Shown one piece after another: positions 2,668-6,684 of a stretch of 64,000 nucleotides of DNA (positions within the stretch are counted from its first letter, which is position 1; each line of letters begins with the position of its first letter). The stretch comes from Streptantibioticus rubrisoli. GTDB taxonomy: Bacteria; Actinomycetota; Actinomycetes; Streptomycetales; Streptomycetaceae. The translations under genes and the position numbers were made by a program. The notes under the pieces were generated by a model. The model ran no database searches. It was not told where the DNA came from and saw only the letters and a list, made by a program, of their open reading frames with translations. Where the stretch lies: positions 1 through 64,000 of the forward strand of contig NZ_JANFNH010000032.1 of the NCBI RefSeq assembly GCF_024436055.1, read 5' to 3'.

Positions 2668-2894
2668 GCCCACGAACGAAGTCAGCCACCCCCGCGCCTG
2701 TGCGCTGCCGCCGTCACCATTGCTCCCGAGTGCCGAAGTCTCGCCAACCCCTCCCCGAGCGGGTCCGGCGCTTTCCGCAGGCGTCGTCCGCGACAGCCGC
2801 AGAGGGCCACCGCGAATGTGGCCGGTTTCACCCCTCTCGCACGGATTCGCAGTTTGACGGAACAGGGCGGGTGCGTGACCGTTGAGTGTGTCAG

Positions 2895-3058
2895 CACCTC
2901 GTTAGGCGAGGCTTCTGCGTGGACACAGGCCACTGACCTCGAACGTCGAGAGACGCCCCAGGTCAGGACAGCTCACCTCGGCACAAGGGGTGAGCCCAAG
3001 TGGCTCTCCGGCCGCCAGGCCGGGAGTACGCCGCGCAGTGCTGAAGCCCGGACGAGAG
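2895..3058 (+). promoter_or_regulatory. M-box (Mg2+) riboswitch, copy 2, complete
   Basis: All conserved M-box blocks appear in order: CTCGTTAGGCGAGGCT (from about 2899), the central ACGTCGAGAGACGCC (2943-2957) with GGTCAGGACAG after it, and the 3' block GTACGCCGCGCAGTGCTGAA (about 3026-3045). M-box RNAs fold around Mg2+ and switch off Mg transport genes when Mg2+ is plentiful. No intrinsic terminator is obvious after it. The next frames are a 26-codon leader and an unrecognised 93-residue protein. A TTGACG at 2854 is a possible -35 element. Confidence 0.85.
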
Positions 3059-3138
3059 AGGTGCCCTCCCATGGCGGGGGCTCCTCGGCCCTGTTCGATG
3101 ACACCCGTGTGTGTCCTGGCCGCGAGGAGGTGAGGGAC

Positions 3139-3219
3139 ATGAGTCCTTGGTCCAGTCCAGAGCCCGACTCCGGGCATGCTCATCCGTCCCCGCTTGATCG
3201 CGGCCCGCGCGCCCGCTGA
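3139..3219 (+). CDS. Proline-rich leader peptide ORF after M-box copy 2 (26 aa)
   Basis: Starts MSPWSSPEPDSGHAH; GAGGAGGTGAGG lies just upstream of the ATG at 3139. Six of 26 codons are proline. Proline-rich leader peptides of enterobacterial mgtA/mgtCBR sense Mg2+ through translation, so an analogous role is plausible here, but this is inference. The same arrangement follows M-box copies 1 and 3. Confidence 0.5.
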   Translation: MSPWSSPEPDSGHAHPSPLDRGPRAR

Positions 3220-3331
3220 ACCCACCGGCTCACCCCCCTTCGGCTCCTCGCCGGGGCGAGGGTGGTGGTGGGCGCTGAGGCGATACCAACCGTGGTCCCG
3301 CGATCAGGCTCTCCTCGCGAAGGAGTCAGCC

Positions 3332-3613
3332 ATGCGCATCGAACTGACCTGGCCGCGCCACGGCGCCGCCGACCGGACGCTGACCGTCCCCGTGCCCGCC
3401 CTTCCCGCTCGCGAGCTGCTGCGGCCCGCGCTCCGTCACGCGCACCAGGCGTGGACGCCCGCGGTCGCGCGGCGCGCACTGGCCTACGCGGAGCCCGTGG
3501 CGAGCAGCGCCGCCAGTGCCGCAGGCGCTGGAGCGCTCGCGCAGCTGACCCTGCCGTTCGTCATCGGCCGGGTCCAGCAGGCACTGTGCGACGCCTCGGG
3601 CCAGACCGCCTGA
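3332..3613 (+). CDS. Uncharacterised 93-aa protein downstream of an M-box
   Basis: Not recognised. Start at ATG 3332 is set by GAAGGAG 6 nt upstream. The N-terminal half (MRIELTWPRHGAADRTLTVP) looks like beta-strands; the rest is Ala-rich and helical, with a weakly hydrophobic C-terminal stretch (ALAQLTLPFVIGRVQQAL). There is no signal peptide or cysteine motif. Its only strong clue is the complete M-box plus leader ORF about 270-440 bp upstream, which implies induction at low Mg2+. It lies between the NRAMP pseudogene and the intact transporter. Confidence 0.6.
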   Translation: MRIELTWPRHGAADRTLTVPVPALPARELLRPALRHAHQAWTPAVARRALAYAEPVASSAASAAGAGALAQLTLPFVIGRVQQALCDASGQTA

Positions 3614-3716: not shown

Positions 3717-3880
3717 AAGGCACCTCGTTCGGTGAGGCGTCTTCACGGACACAGGCCACTGATCCCACCCGTCGAGAGACGCTCCGGATCAGGACAGGTC
3801 TCCCCGGGCTAAGGGGTGACCCCAAGTGGCTTCCCGCTTCTGGCGGGACACGCCGTGGAGTGCCAAAGCTCTGACGAGTT
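3717..3880 (+). promoter_or_regulatory. M-box (Mg2+) riboswitch, copy 3, upstream of the NRAMP-related transporter
   Basis: Complete M-box: CTCGTTCGGTGAGGCGTC (from about 3724), the central CCGTCGAGAGACGCTCC (3769-3785) followed by GGATCAGGACAG, and the 3' block ACACGCCGTGGAGTGCCAAA with GCTCTGACG (about 3848-3876). M-boxes upstream of NRAMP-like Mg2+ transporters are established in bacteria. The RNA is followed by a 25-codon leader ORF and then, about 315 bp after the aptamer, the transporter. The long platform, without a clear terminator, suggests translation- or Rho-linked control. Confidence 0.88.
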
Positions 3881-3974
3881 GGGGTGAACCGGCCGCTTGT
3901 GCGGGCTGGTCCGCTCCTTGCCGAGTCGACGCTGACGCGACCGATCGCGTCCCGGCCGGAAGGAGGCGAGAGAC

Positions 3975-4052
3975 ATGGATTGCAGTAGCAGTAGTCCGGG
4001 CCACAGTCGGCCCTTCATCCCCGTGTTCTCGCATTCTTCCGGCACGCGGTAA
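3975..4052 (+). CDS. Ser-rich leader peptide ORF after M-box copy 3 (25 aa)
   Basis: Starts MDCSSSSPGHSRPFIPVF; GGAAGGAGGCGAGAG precedes the ATG at 3975, one of the strongest ribosome sites in the window. It ends 142 bp before the transporter start. Its Ser-run then Pro/His pattern resembles the leader frames after M-box copies 1 and 2. It is likely translated, and its translation may set the fate of the downstream mRNA. Confidence 0.5.
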   Translation: MDCSSSSPGHSRPFIPVFSHSSGTR

Positions 4053-4160
4053 CCACCTTCCCTGCGCGGCCCCGACCGCGCGATGCCCTGGTGTGGTACG
4101 CCTACCGGCGGCACACCGTGCGCGCCTGCGCGCAGGGCGGATGACTGCCGCGTGCCCCTG

Positions 4161-4189
4161 ACCTCCCCGATGAGGGGGGATTGGGAGGT
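4161..4189 (+). promoter_or_regulatory. Hairpin that can mask the transporter's ribosome binding site
   Basis: ACCTCCC (4161-4167) is a perfect 7-nt complement of GGGAGGT (4183-4189), the Shine-Dalgarno 5 nt before the ATG at 4195. Pairing would hide the ribosome site. An alternative CCCC/GGGG pairing within the loop is possible. This suggests translational control as the M-box output. Confidence 0.45.
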
Positions 4190-4194
4190 ACGTC

Positions 4195-5838
4195 ATGACC
4201 AACACCACCGTTGAGGCGACCGTCGCCCCTGCGCGTGCCGCGGTGCTGGACGACGCGCACGTCGGTGACATCCGTGGTGCGCTCGGCACGATCAGGCTGG
4301 ATGACACCGCGCCGCGCACCGGCCTGTCGGCCAAGCTGAAGACGCTGTTGGCGATCGTCGGTCCCGGCCTGATCGTGATGGTCGGCGACAACGACGCCGG
4401 TGCCTTCGCCACCTACGGGCAGGCCGGGCAGAACTACGGCACCAAGCTGCTGTGGACGCTGCTGCTGCTCATCCCCGTGCTGTACGTCAACCAGGAGATG
4501 GTGCTGCGGCTCGGCGCGGTCACCGGTGTCGGGCACGCCCGGCTGATCCTTGAGCGGTTCGGCAAGTTCTGGGGCGCGTTCTCCGTCATCGACCTTTTCC
4601 TGCTCAACGGCCTGACGCTGGTGACGGAGTTCATCGGCATCACGCTGGCCGCCGGATACCTGGGGCTGCCCAAGGCGGCATCCGTCGTGCTGGCCGCGGC
4701 GATCATCATCGCCTCGGCGTTCACCGGCTCCTTCCAGCGCTTCGAGCGGATCGCGATCGCGCTGTGCGCGGCCTCGCTGCTGCTGGTGCCGATCTACTTC
4801 ATGGTCCACCCGGCCACCTCGCAGATGGCCCACGACTTCGTGGTGCCCACCATGCCTGGTGGTTCGGGCGAGTTGGCCACCGTCATGCTGCTGATCATCG
4901 GCATCGTCGGCACCACGGTGGCGCCCTGGCAGCTGTTCTTCCAGCAGTCGTACGTCATCGACAAGCGGATCACCCCGCGGTTCATGAAGTACGAGAAGGT
5001 CGACCTGTGGATCGGCATCGCCGTGGTGGTCATCGGTGCCGCCGCCATGATGGGTTTCACCGCCGCCGCGTTCGCCGGGACCAAGGGCTTCGGCAACTTC
5101 GGTGACGCGGGCGGGATCGCCACCGGCCTTGAGGCCCACGCGGGCAAGCTCGTCGGGGTGCTGTTCGCCGTCGCGTTGCTGGACGCCTCGATCATCGGCG
5201 CGTTCGCGGTCTCGCTGTCCACCGCCTACGCCATCGGCGACGTCTTCGGGATGAAGCACTCGCTGCACCGCGGGGTCAAGGGCGCCAAGGGCTTCTACGC
5301 CGTCTACGCCGGACTGGTGGCCGCCGCTGCCGCGATCGTGCTGCTCCCGGGCTCGCCGCTGGGGCTGCTGACCGAGGGCGTGCAGACCCTCGCCGGTGTG
5401 CTGCTGCCGTCCGCGTCGGTCTTCCTGCTGCTGCTGTGCAACGACAAGGCCGTCCTCGGTCCGTGGGTCAACGGGCCGAAGACCAATGCCTTCACCACCG
5501 CGGTCGTCGGTGTGCTGGTGATGCTCTCGATCATCCTCACCGCCTCGGTCCTCTTCCCGAACATCACCGCGAACGCGATCCTCGACATCATGGCCGCCTG
5601 CGGCGTGGTGGGAGTCCTGGCCGTCGGCTGGGCCCTGACCCGCCGCCGCACCGCAACCAAGGAAGACCCCATCGACCGCACCGGACGCGACACCTGGCGG
5701 ATGCCCCCGCTGGAGACGCTCACCCAGCCGACCATGTCCACCGCCCGCAAGGTCGGCATGGGCGCGCTGCGCGGATACCTCCTGGTCGCCATGGTCCTGG
5801 TCGTCCTCAAGATCGTGGAAGTCGCCCTCGGTCACTGA
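4195..5838 (+). CDS. NRAMP-related divalent metal transporter, probably Mg2+ type (NRMT)
   Basis: 547 residues with about 11 membrane helices and polar ends. NRAMP fold features: GPGLIVMVGDNDAGAFATYG in helix 1 and GIVGTTVAPWQLFFQQSYV in helix 6. Classical Mn/Fe NRAMPs carry DPGN in helix 1 and MPH in helix 6; here they read DAGA and APW. Loss of the helix-6 methionine, which selects against Mg2+ and Ca2+, is the hallmark reported for NRAMP-related Mg2+ transporters. The M-box upstream independently points to Mg2+. GGGAGG sits 6 nt before the ATG. The C-terminal tail after residue 480 is cytosolic apart from a last helix (LRGYLLVAMVLVVLKIV). Substrate is inferred, not shown. Confidence 0.85.
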   Translation: MTNTTVEATVAPARAAVLDDAHVGDIRGALGTIRLDDTAPRTGLSAKLKTLLAIVGPGLIVMVGDNDAGAFATYGQAGQNYGTKLLWTLLLLIPVLYVNQEMVLRLGAVTGVGHARLILERFGKFWGAFSVIDLFLLNGLTLVTEFIGITLAAGYLGLPKAASVVLAAAIIIASAFTGSFQRFERIAIALCAASLLLVPIYFMVHPATSQMAHDFVVPTMPGGSGELATVMLLIIGIVGTTVAPWQLFFQQSYVIDKRITPRFMKYEKVDLWIGIAVVVIGAAAMMGFTAAAFAGTKGFGNFGDAGGIATGLEAHAGKLVGVLFAVALLDASIIGAFAVSLSTAYAIGDVFGMKHSLHRGVKGAKGFYAVYAGLVAAAAAIVLLPGSPLGLLTEGVQTLAGVLLPSASVFLLLLCNDKAVLGPWVNGPKTNAFTTAVVGVLVMLSIILTASVLFPNITANAILDIMAACGVVGVLAVGWALTRRRTATKEDPIDRTGRDTWRMPPLETLTQPTMSTARKVGMGALRGYLLVAMVLVVLKIVEVALGH

Positions 5839-5927: not shown

Positions 5928-6296
5928 ATGCTCGCCGCACTCGACCACGTACAACTCGCCACCCCGCCCGGCAGCGAGGAACTCCTGCGCGCCTTCTACA
6001 TCGGCGCGTTGGGCATGACCGAGATCCCCAAGCCACCGGTACTGGCCGCTCGCGGCGGCTGCTGGTTCGCCACCCCCGACGGCACAGTCCAGCTCCACCT
6101 CGGCGTCGAAGACCCCTTCCGCCCGGCGCTCAAAGCCCACCCCGGGCTGCGCGTCACCGGCATCGACGCCTTCGCCGAACGCATCGCCTCGCACGGCGCC
6201 CCGGTGGTGTGGGACGACAACCTGCCCGGCCACCGCCGCTTCTACAGCACCGACCCGGTCGGCAACCGCCTCGAATTCCTCCAACCCCTCGCCTGA
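5928..6296 (+). CDS. VOC (glyoxalase/bleomycin-resistance fold) family protein
   Basis: 122 residues, one VOC unit of two beta-alpha-beta-beta-beta repeats. The N-terminal LDHVQLATPPGSEELLRAFY and C-terminal HRRFYSTDPVGNRLEFLQP are typical; candidate metal ligands are His in LDHVQL, His in VQLHLGV and Glu in RLEFLQ. Start at ATG 5928 with GGAGG about 11 nt upstream. It could be a small-molecule enzyme or binding protein; the substrate is unknown. It sits between the NRMT gene and a MgtC-like domain gene. Confidence 0.75.
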   Translation: MLAALDHVQLATPPGSEELLRAFYIGALGMTEIPKPPVLAARGGCWFATPDGTVQLHLGVEDPFRPALKAHPGLRVTGIDAFAERIASHGAPVVWDDNLPGHRRFYSTDPVGNRLEFLQPLA

Positions 6297-6348: not shown

Positions 6349-6684
6349 ATGTACGTACTCGACCGCCTGCTGCTGGGCTCCGTGGAGCGCCTGGTCGACC
6401 GCACCCCTTCAGCCTCCGCCGACTTCCCCGTGCAGGTCACGGTGCACACCGTCTGCGACGCCCAGGCAGAGGCCCACGTACGCACCCTGCTCACCCAAGC
6501 CCTCAGCGGCCCTGGCGTGCCAGTGCCCATCAACTCCCGTACGACGATGGATGGTTCGGCCACACTGGAGGCGAGCGTCACCGTCAACGGCCCGGCCGCC
6601 GCACCAATGGCCCGGGTGCTCACCCACGTATGGCTCGAACCCGGCGTACAGGCCGTCCGCTGGGAGCTGTCACCAACGGGCTGA
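6349..6684 (+). CDS. Stand-alone MgtC/SapB C-terminal (ACT-like) domain protein
   Basis: 111 residues. Residues about 25-110 resemble the soluble C-terminal domain of MgtC proteins: VQVTVHTVCDAQAEAHVRTL, then a beta-rich middle, then ARVLTHVWLEPGVQAVRWEL. The membrane part of MgtC is absent, and the first 22 residues resemble the linker that normally joins the two. Start is secure (GGGAGG 5 nt before the ATG). MgtC is a Mg2+-limitation virulence and ATPase-modulating factor, so the location after an M-box-controlled NRMT fits. Whether this is a free regulatory domain or a remnant is undecided. Confidence 0.55.
   Translation: MYVLDRLLLGSVERLVDRTPSASADFPVQVTVHTVCDAQAEAHVRTLLTQALSGPGVPVPINSRTTMDGSATLEASVTVNGPAAAPMARVLTHVWLEPGVQAVRWELSPTG

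Follow-up and report, generated by a model that had tools for sequence, protein, structure and literature searches.

We analysed a 64,000-nucleotide (nt) stretch of the Streptantibioticus rubrisoli genome (contig NZ_JANFNH010000032.1, positions 1 to 64,000; referred to here as the window), and in particular the leader of a gene for an NRAMP-related Mg2+ transporter. All features described lie on the plus strand. The leader carries an M-box riboswitch aptamer followed by a 25-codon upstream open reading frame (uORF). We propose, with a probability of about 0.58, that it is a tandem Mg2+ leader, in which the riboswitch gates initiation at the uORF and the uORF encodes a cis-acting leader peptide. 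Judging from sequence comparison, the uORF most likely has an effect of its own on Mg2+-related genes, as it also precedes CorA, MgtE_N-CBS, MgtC and NRAMP genes that have no M-box and would therefore be more than an accessory of the riboswitch. The path from an M-box through a translational platform to a uORF, with the participation of Rho, is already known from pe20 of Mycobacterium tuberculosis (PMC12810186). What appears to be new is the leader peptide itself, a widespread family with fixed codons found at Mg2+-related genes with or without a riboswitch. This family is also the largest point absent from an earlier reading of the locus made from its letters alone (the original prediction).

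Predicted ribosome-site masking behind the M-box

The complete M-box of the original prediction was borne out. Positions 3717-3890 (box B) matched Rfam family RF00380 over its full length (model positions 1-169) with 135.4 bits (E 2.5e-30), compared to a gathering score of 44. The predicted leader ORF was also recovered at 3975-4052 (MDCSSSSPGHSRPFIPVFSHSSGTR). It is preceded by the Shine-Dalgarno (SD) sequence AAGGAGG (3960-3966), and a comparison of 76 related leaders showed that its start, stop and core are conserved. These 76 leaders were obtained from 99 NRAMP leaders, of which 85 combined the uORF core with a good aptamer score; 77 remained after de-duplication and 76 (alignment A1) after leaving out L019, which has a long ORF. 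Shuffles and slid helices served as the controls for covariation.

The best-supported helix behind the aptamer is predicted to mask the SD of the uORF itself. A strand located between the aptamer and the uORF (CGCTCCTTGCCGAGTC, 3912-3927; anti-SD 1) can pair with the uORF ribosome site (3953-3968) and thereby cover the uORF start region. In the 76 leaders, 92.3% of the cells of this helix were paired. Together with two neighbouring helices, it reached a covariation of 0.250, compared to 0.167 in shuffles and at most 0.082 in slides, and contained 122 cells changed on both sides, compared to 39 in shuffles. A post-aptamer hairpin (3889-3909) was paired in 91.8% of the cells, with six of its seven pairs changed on both sides. 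The predicted accessibility of the ribosome site was low. The probability of the uORF SD being unpaired was 0.191, compared to 0.370 with shuffled upstream sequence, and it was lower in 65 of the 75 leaders with a recognised SD (75 of 77 rows; p 5e-12). Moreover, the 3' strand of aptamer helix P1 (GGGGTG, 3881-3886) is a candidate anti-anti-SD, being complementary to the anti-SD CGCUCC in 430 of 456 cells of the 76 leaders (57-80% in slid controls). An anti-SD that lies between aptamer and uORF and masks the uORF SD, together with an aptamer-end strand complementary to it, is the arrangement of the pe20-type translational M-box. This comparison alters the probable mechanism, since both the masked SD and the complementary P1 strand point to a translational M-box.

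The ribosome site of the transporter gene appears to be masked separately. Its SD region (GGGAGGTACG, 4183-4192) has a candidate partner in GCGTGCCCC (4150-4158; anti-SD 2, GCGUGCCCC as RNA). This duplex was specific for the cognate partner (-11.07 compared to -10.51 for non-cognate pairs; 0/2000 shuffles) in 61 of the 74 rows of alignment A2, the other 13 being dropped for lack of a pattern match; A2 holds 74 of the 77 leaders, without L013, L066 and L067. The unpaired probability of the NRAMP SD was 0.225 versus 0.287, and it was lower in 54 of 76 leaders (p 0.001). The original prediction had named a different partner, ACCTCCC (4161-4167), which is indeed complementary to GGGAGGT (4183-4189) and whose segment forms a duplex of -13.5 kcal/mol with the SD at this locus. 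We rejected it as a conserved mask, however, because 1712/2000 shuffles were as good. In the minimum-energy fold of the window, ACCTCCC is mostly held within an inner hairpin (CTCCCC GATGA GGGGGG, 4163-4179; cognate -12.33 compared to -10.78, 0/2000), while the SD pairs with 4151-4161. Thus, the named anti-SD did not hold up as the conserved one, but a masked NRAMP SD stood, and so did the idea of control through leader translation and ribosome-site access, which is supported by the specific complementarity found for the NRAMP SD and by the conserved covarying helices around that of the uORF.

Two further conserved tracts lie between the uORF and the transporter gene. A C-rich tract behind the uORF stop (CCACCTTCCCTGCGCG, 4053-4068) may be a Rho entry site. 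A G-rich strand (GCAGGGCGG, 4132-4140) was considered as an anti-anti-SD 2 and rejected, its cognate pairing with anti-SD 2 not being significant (141/2000 shuffles). An apparent third ORF, starting with GTG or ATG in the motif GCRTGCCC before NRAMP, was rejected as well, as the triplet was GTG in 47, ATG in 10, GCG in 11 and ACG in 1 of the 74 rows, 5 of which had no pattern match.

The leader ORF family with and without the M-box

We collected 216 M-box matches, which gave 195 leaders after removal of near-duplicates and short stretches; 190 had a sufficient score. An SD-led ORF was present 40-190 nt behind the aptamer in 186 of these 190, and 138 of the 186 contained the core (S/R/T/G)-P-G-(H/R). 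Among the 76 NRAMP-type leaders, the uORF starts with ATG in 71, GTG in 4 and TTG in 1, encodes an acidic residue (Asp or Glu) at codon 2 in 74, and stops with TAA in 72; the six window ORFs that we counted all end in TGA. The core consensus, S-P-G-(H/R)-x-x-P, is written in nearly fixed codons (AGT-CCG-GGC-CAC-AGT-CGG-CCC at 3993-4013 in the window). CCG, CCC and CGG were found in 75, 75 and 73 of the 76 leaders, respectively. In a set of 139, CCG occurred in 132 and AGT occupied its two core positions in 131 and 97, with no other Ser codon there, compared to 1 AGT among the 81 Ser codons of the six window ORFs. Other third positions vary freely, such as those of Asp2 (GAC/GAT) and His (CAC/CAT). 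The fixed codons, stop and AGT therefore suggest more than coding constraint, with RNA or codon identity being of importance.

Possible hairpins within the uORF pair GGGCC (3998-4002) with GGCCC (4009-4013) and GGATT (3977-3981) with AGTCC (3993-3997), and the uORF SD also complements the 3' half of the uORF. Several mutually exclusive folds are therefore available, and we make no claim as to which forms when. In-ORF hairpins were rejected as the sole cause of AGT. CorA-type uORFs whose second codon is GAG or GAA (L204, L217, L229 and L232) have the GGAY:GUCC pairing reduced to three pairs and keep AGT.

To describe the distribution of the uORF, we employed a sequence model of its SD and core (R1, built from 54 sequences) against 297 genomes of the host's family at E 0.01. 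The window uORF, itself part of the training set, matched with E 7.7e-16. R1 matched 105 of the 297 genomes, some of them marginally, and M-boxes matched 88. There were at least 150 R1 matches. Among the 150 listed, 110 lay at most 250 nt behind an M-box, accounting for 110 of the 137 M-boxes, and 40, spread over 35 genomes, had none within 250 nt upstream. Rfam at E 0.1 revealed no M-box in the 39 loci that hold these 40 uORFs and detected the control, L324. Ten genomes with a listed uORF gave no M-box match in a search whose filters lose weak matches. By motif, the genes behind the 40 M-box-less uORFs were CorA (18), MgtE_N-CBS (9), NRAMP (5), MgtC/SapB (3), glyoxalase (1) and unassigned (4), so that 35 belong to the first four classes; Pfam on representatives agreed with this classification. 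Among the unassigned cases, the next gene encodes a Trans_reg_C protein in L322, and no Pfam family matched the proteins encoded behind L286 and L318. Two assignments were rejected on the basis of Pfam: the MSDWRVRAVRAS protein is CorA and not a P-type ATPase, and the MgtE-like genes encode MgtE_N plus CBS without a membrane domain and not full MgtE transporters.

The M-box-less loci are of more than one kind. In 14 of the 18 CorA cases, the R1 match is preceded at 42-55 nt by TAGACT or TACACT, and no anti-SD-like string was found upstream of the uORF in 13 of the 18; the CorA-type uORF is therefore probably near the 5' end. Remnants of an M-box, consisting of its 3' end, are retained with 7 of the 40 M-box-less uORFs. 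Four loci (L285, L287, L288 and L289) and L043 from a named genome keep the uORF behind an M-box truncated to its 3' end (GACGAGTTGGGGTG), and appear as natural aptamer-loss variants. The edge of these remnants, TAAGCT or TAGGCT, could act as a -10 box. Nine named-genome loci (L041, L043, L045, L055, L064, L073, L076, L078 and L080) had no M-box at E 0.5, yet a short SD-led uORF containing an SPG/PGH motif remains before NRAMP. Separately, the CorA leaders L331, L333 and L346 of Streptomyces sensu stricto contain a different short uORF, MSxEPPSR/MDSEPPSR, with an acidic-Pro-Pro start reminiscent of MgtL.

Outside this family of bacteria, the closest described system is that of M. tuberculosis, in which reporter evidence indicates that a translational M-box at pe20 controls a conserved uORF and Rho-dependent termination (RNA 2026; PMC12810186). 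The window leader is similar to pe20/rv1535 and uORF2 (Rv1805A) in its M-box, in an anti-SD between aptamer and uORF and in the lack of a detected intrinsic terminator. With pe20 it also shares an aptamer-end strand as the presumed anti-anti-SD (SD1 there) and a conserved uORF, which is well translated there. It differs from pe20 in its target genes and in having the SD of the main gene masked as well. The pe20 peptide was called mycobacteria-specific, with its role left open in 2026 (PMC12810186). Unlike this stated specificity, similar leaders occur in Streptomycetaceae and others, also without an M-box, and harmless soil bacteria thus offer test hosts.

We compared the uORF with M-box loci of a PPE-bearing genus group (g20), rather than with the Rv1805A sequence itself. 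The PPE protein behind one g20 M-box (PF00823, E 8e-64) indicates that g20 is presumably Mycobacterium. A model built from 48 Streptomycetaceae uORFs only matched Streptosporangiaceae (3.1e-10 to 4.5e-9), Amycolatopsis (9.7e-7) and a Nocardiopsaceae metagenome-assembled genome (1.5e-5), and matched g20 weakly (best 2.3e-3, others 0.039-0.85); all 26 matches listed fall at the uORF. A class-wide search with R1, whose training included two g20 sequences, matched 21 of 394 genomes, nine of them in g20, with several matches at E 0.004-0.01 that are possibly due to chance. The core of one g20 leader, L120 (AGT CCG GGC CGA AGT), is the same as in Streptomycetaceae CorA leaders, and the uORFs of L119-L125 have Pro at residue 7, as does Rv1805A uORF2. 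Together, these comparisons suggest that the Streptomycetaceae and mycobacterial uORFs are likely to be homologous. Among the matches listed in literature searches, whose coverage left most subscription papers out, there was no Mg2+ leader peptide in actinobacteria outside mycobacteria; the available part of one report lists an mgtE motif only in Thioalkalivibrio (PMC11109978).

Proposed mechanism and alternatives

According to our model, binding of Mg2+ would let the M-box close P1, so that anti-SD 1 covers the uORF SD and blocks initiation at the uORF. At low Mg2+, the P1 3' strand would take up anti-SD 1 and free the uORF SD; the pairings themselves are conserved, and from them we infer the switch. 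Once initiated, the uORF would act as a cis-acting leader peptide, with the passage of ribosomes through the core S-P-G-(H/R) deciding the downstream outcome. Translation of the uORF would decide whether the downstream RNA is transcribed, possibly through Rho as in the M. tuberculosis precedent, and also whether the separately masked NRAMP SD is opened. The presence of a similar fixed-codon leader before four classes of Mg2+-related genes, with and without an aptamer, argues for such a cis-acting peptide.

Enteric Mg2+ genes with leader ORFs provide a parallel, as far as the available parts of the reports go (PMC11552253, PMC3641672, PMC8092293). Like the window uORF, mgtL, corL and mgtQ of Salmonella and E. 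coli are short uORFs with alternative stems before Mg2+ transport genes, and mgtL and mgtQ contain acidic and proline residues (PMC11552253, PMC8092293). The mgtQ leader involves masking of a ribosome-binding site, as at the window leader (PMC8092293), and Rho acts at mgtL and corL in Salmonella (PMC11552253), as it might here. The window leader differs from all three in its M-box partner and in having one peptide family for several gene classes, and no sequence relation to them was shown.

Several results weigh against the tandem-leader reading. The helix between the P1 3' strand and anti-SD 1 shows complementarity and no covariation, because the aptamer fixes the P1 strand, and the masking helix at the uORF SD has changes on both sides in just 2 of its 15 pairs. 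The three in-ORF helices are 93% paired with little covariation (8 double-change cells compared to 1.5), and a simpler in-ORF stem test was barely above shuffles (618 compared to 612, standard deviation 2.9). At the window locus, 142 nt separate the uORF stop from the NRAMP start, which is too distant for simple coupling. The principal termination site in the M. tuberculosis leader precedes the uORF (PMC12810186), and Rho may therefore not depend on uORF translation. The association with Mg2+-related genes also has gaps. No R1 match was found behind 27 of the 137 M-boxes, including the second M-box of the window (E 0.14), and the R1 uORF was present in 0 of 30 CorA loci of Streptomyces sensu stricto (g10). 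Moreover, a single genus group (g14) supplied 17 of the 18 M-box-less CorA cases, so that these 17 are not independent, and the MgtE_N-CBS proteins, which lack the MgtE membrane domain, need not be transporters.

The uORF might instead be an autonomous Mg2+ sensor, in which an acidic residue 2 (or 5) and early prolines destabilise or pause ribosomes at low Mg2+, the M-box being an optional second layer. This alternative is conceivable, and we hold it tentatively. Like MgtL and MgtQ, the family has acidic residues and/or Pro near the N terminus. Residue 2 is acidic in 37 of the 38 M-box-less uORFs that could be read out of 40 (Asp in 19 and Glu in 18, the latter mainly before CorA) and in 137 of the 186 M-box uORFs; an acidic residue falls within positions 2-6 in 37 of 38 and 163 of 186, and Pro within positions 4-12 in 38 of 38 and 180 of 186. 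The rare AGT is fixed at the core, and the same target genes recur without the aptamer. In Salmonella, MgtQ requires Asp2 and Glu5 to unmask the ribosome-binding site of the Mg2+ transporter gene mgtB, according to the available part of that study (PMC8092293). However, most uORFs contain a single acidic residue and lack an E/D-P run, 23 of the 186 M-box uORFs, box A types included (see below), have no acidic residue within 2-6, and the polarity of such a sensor would have to suit both leader types. If the uORF does sense Mg2+, the reading of this ion by ribosomes through a leader peptide (MgtL and MgtQ in Salmonella) would extend to Actinobacteria, and a tandem of riboswitch and leader peptide would exist for a single ion, with natural riboswitch-loss variants.

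Alternatively, the product of the uORF might be a small protein that works on Mg2+ transporters in trans, a role already proposed for Rv1805A, and the leader position of the uORF would then reflect co-expression. The conservation of the peptide and of its start and stop codons would fit, as would the M-box-free copies in the family, to which Rv0115A adds one in M. tuberculosis (PMC12810186). We consider this unlikely, because many third positions are fixed (CCG, CCC, CGG, stop TAA) while others vary freely, unlike under ordinary coding constraint. In addition, the C-terminal halves of the uORFs differ by target gene, the longest hydrophobic run is 5 residues, and 36 of the 40 M-box-less copies precede a Mg2+-related gene or glyoxalase. 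Most improbable of all is a transcriptional M-box with an unrecognised terminator, next to which the uORF would be incidental. Actinobacterial terminators may often lack a T run, and our scan requires one; it found 0 intrinsic terminators in the leader compared to 0.8 expected in shuffles, in agreement with the original prediction of no clear terminator. Also against a transcriptional switch, the uORF SD is covered by the strongest helix behind the aptamer, and the uORF lies behind most M-boxes and recurs without them.

The lack of a detected intrinsic terminator sets this locus apart from ykoK of Bacillus subtilis, which has an aptamer of the same family, RF00380, and whose M-box, in the accounts available in part (PMC12810186, PMC4072509), forms an intrinsic terminator. 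The original prediction had seen here a three-part unit unlike the classic Bacillus M-box; our scan found no terminator, but the architecture is not unique, given the pe20 precedent (PMC12810186). More speculatively, Actinobacteria may share one cis-acting peptide, M-(D/E)-(x)n-S-S-P-G-(H/R)-x-x-P, written in near-fixed rare codons and serving as a ribosome-based Mg2+ sensor for CorA, MgtE_N-CBS, MgtC and NRAMP. The M-box would have been layered on in some loci and lost in others, leaving the P1 3' strand, and this family would include Rv1805A, Rv1535A and Rv0115A, which would then not be PE/PPE accessory proteins. We put this forward as a possibility that we do not favour at present.

The transporter, the second M-box and neighbouring genes

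The 547-amino-acid (aa) transporter (4195-5838; PF01566, E 3.9e-77) appears to be of the NRAMP-related Mg2+ transporter (NRMT) type, as originally predicted. Its nearest solved structure is 7qia, EleNRMT (E 1.3e-46; next best 3.5e-18), and its closest named relatives are mostly from Streptomyces, Kitasatospora and Streptacidiphilus. The NRMT signature, as given in the available part of the source (PMC8806188), is DxxG in transmembrane segment (TM) 1 and TxxA/T in TM6. TTVA in TM6 fits this signature, while TM1 reads DAGA, with Ala in place of the Gly of DxxG. An M-box before an NRAMP-related Mg2+ transporter with TxxA in TM6 is shared with NrmT/NRMT of Clostridium (PMC4072509) and EleNRMT (PMC8806188), insofar as the partly available reports describe them; the window leader appears to use a different platform.

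The source genome (7.26 Mb) contains five M-boxes, two of them in the window. The second, box A (2891-3067; 144.9 bits), also belongs to RF00380 by sequence and structure, at full length and above the gathering score. The same elements follow either box in the same order, namely an anti-SD, a short ORF preceded by a strong SD, another masked SD and finally a gene. The original prediction contained neither the masked SD of the uORF behind box B nor this second M-box with its own uORF and masked SD. Folds in the box A region are based on single sequences. The anti-SD (GGCTCCTCGGCC, 3079-3090) forms a duplex of -17.0 kcal/mol with the ribosome site (GGCCGCGAGGAGGTG, 3118-3132) of uORF A (MSPWSSPEPDSGHAHPSPLDRGPRAR, 3139-3219). 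This uORF matches R1 weakly and has a paralog in the same genome, MSPWSSPEPAPGHAHPSPLDRGARIR, likewise behind an M-box. A predicted hairpin, CTCCT-CGCGA-AGGAG (3311-3325), covers the SD of the following gene (3332-3613), whose 93-aa product had no match in Pfam and NCBIfam.

This protein belongs to a family of 90-104 aa (MRIELTW...) located under M-boxes with an SPEPxPGH-type uORF, with further members in L002, L006, L007, L011 and L243. In L003, L008 and L010, an M-box and a uORF of 40-43 codons are followed by an 84-85 aa protein (LTLRRTxTVRLAL...), of which the window's own genome has one copy (C65). Upstream of box A lies an NRAMP gene fragment (1354-2082) with the C-terminal Pfam part only (272-356 of 357). 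Divergent M-box pairs, with a few hundred bases in between, were seen at G077:C15, G194:C4 and G228:C1. Downstream of the transporter gene, the window contains a glyoxalase-like gene (5931-6296) and a gene for an MgtC_SapB_C domain protein (6349-6684). Relatives have a separate leader uORF before their glyoxalase gene, accompanied by an M-box in L239 and without one in L303, so that this gene may belong to the Mg2+ gene set.

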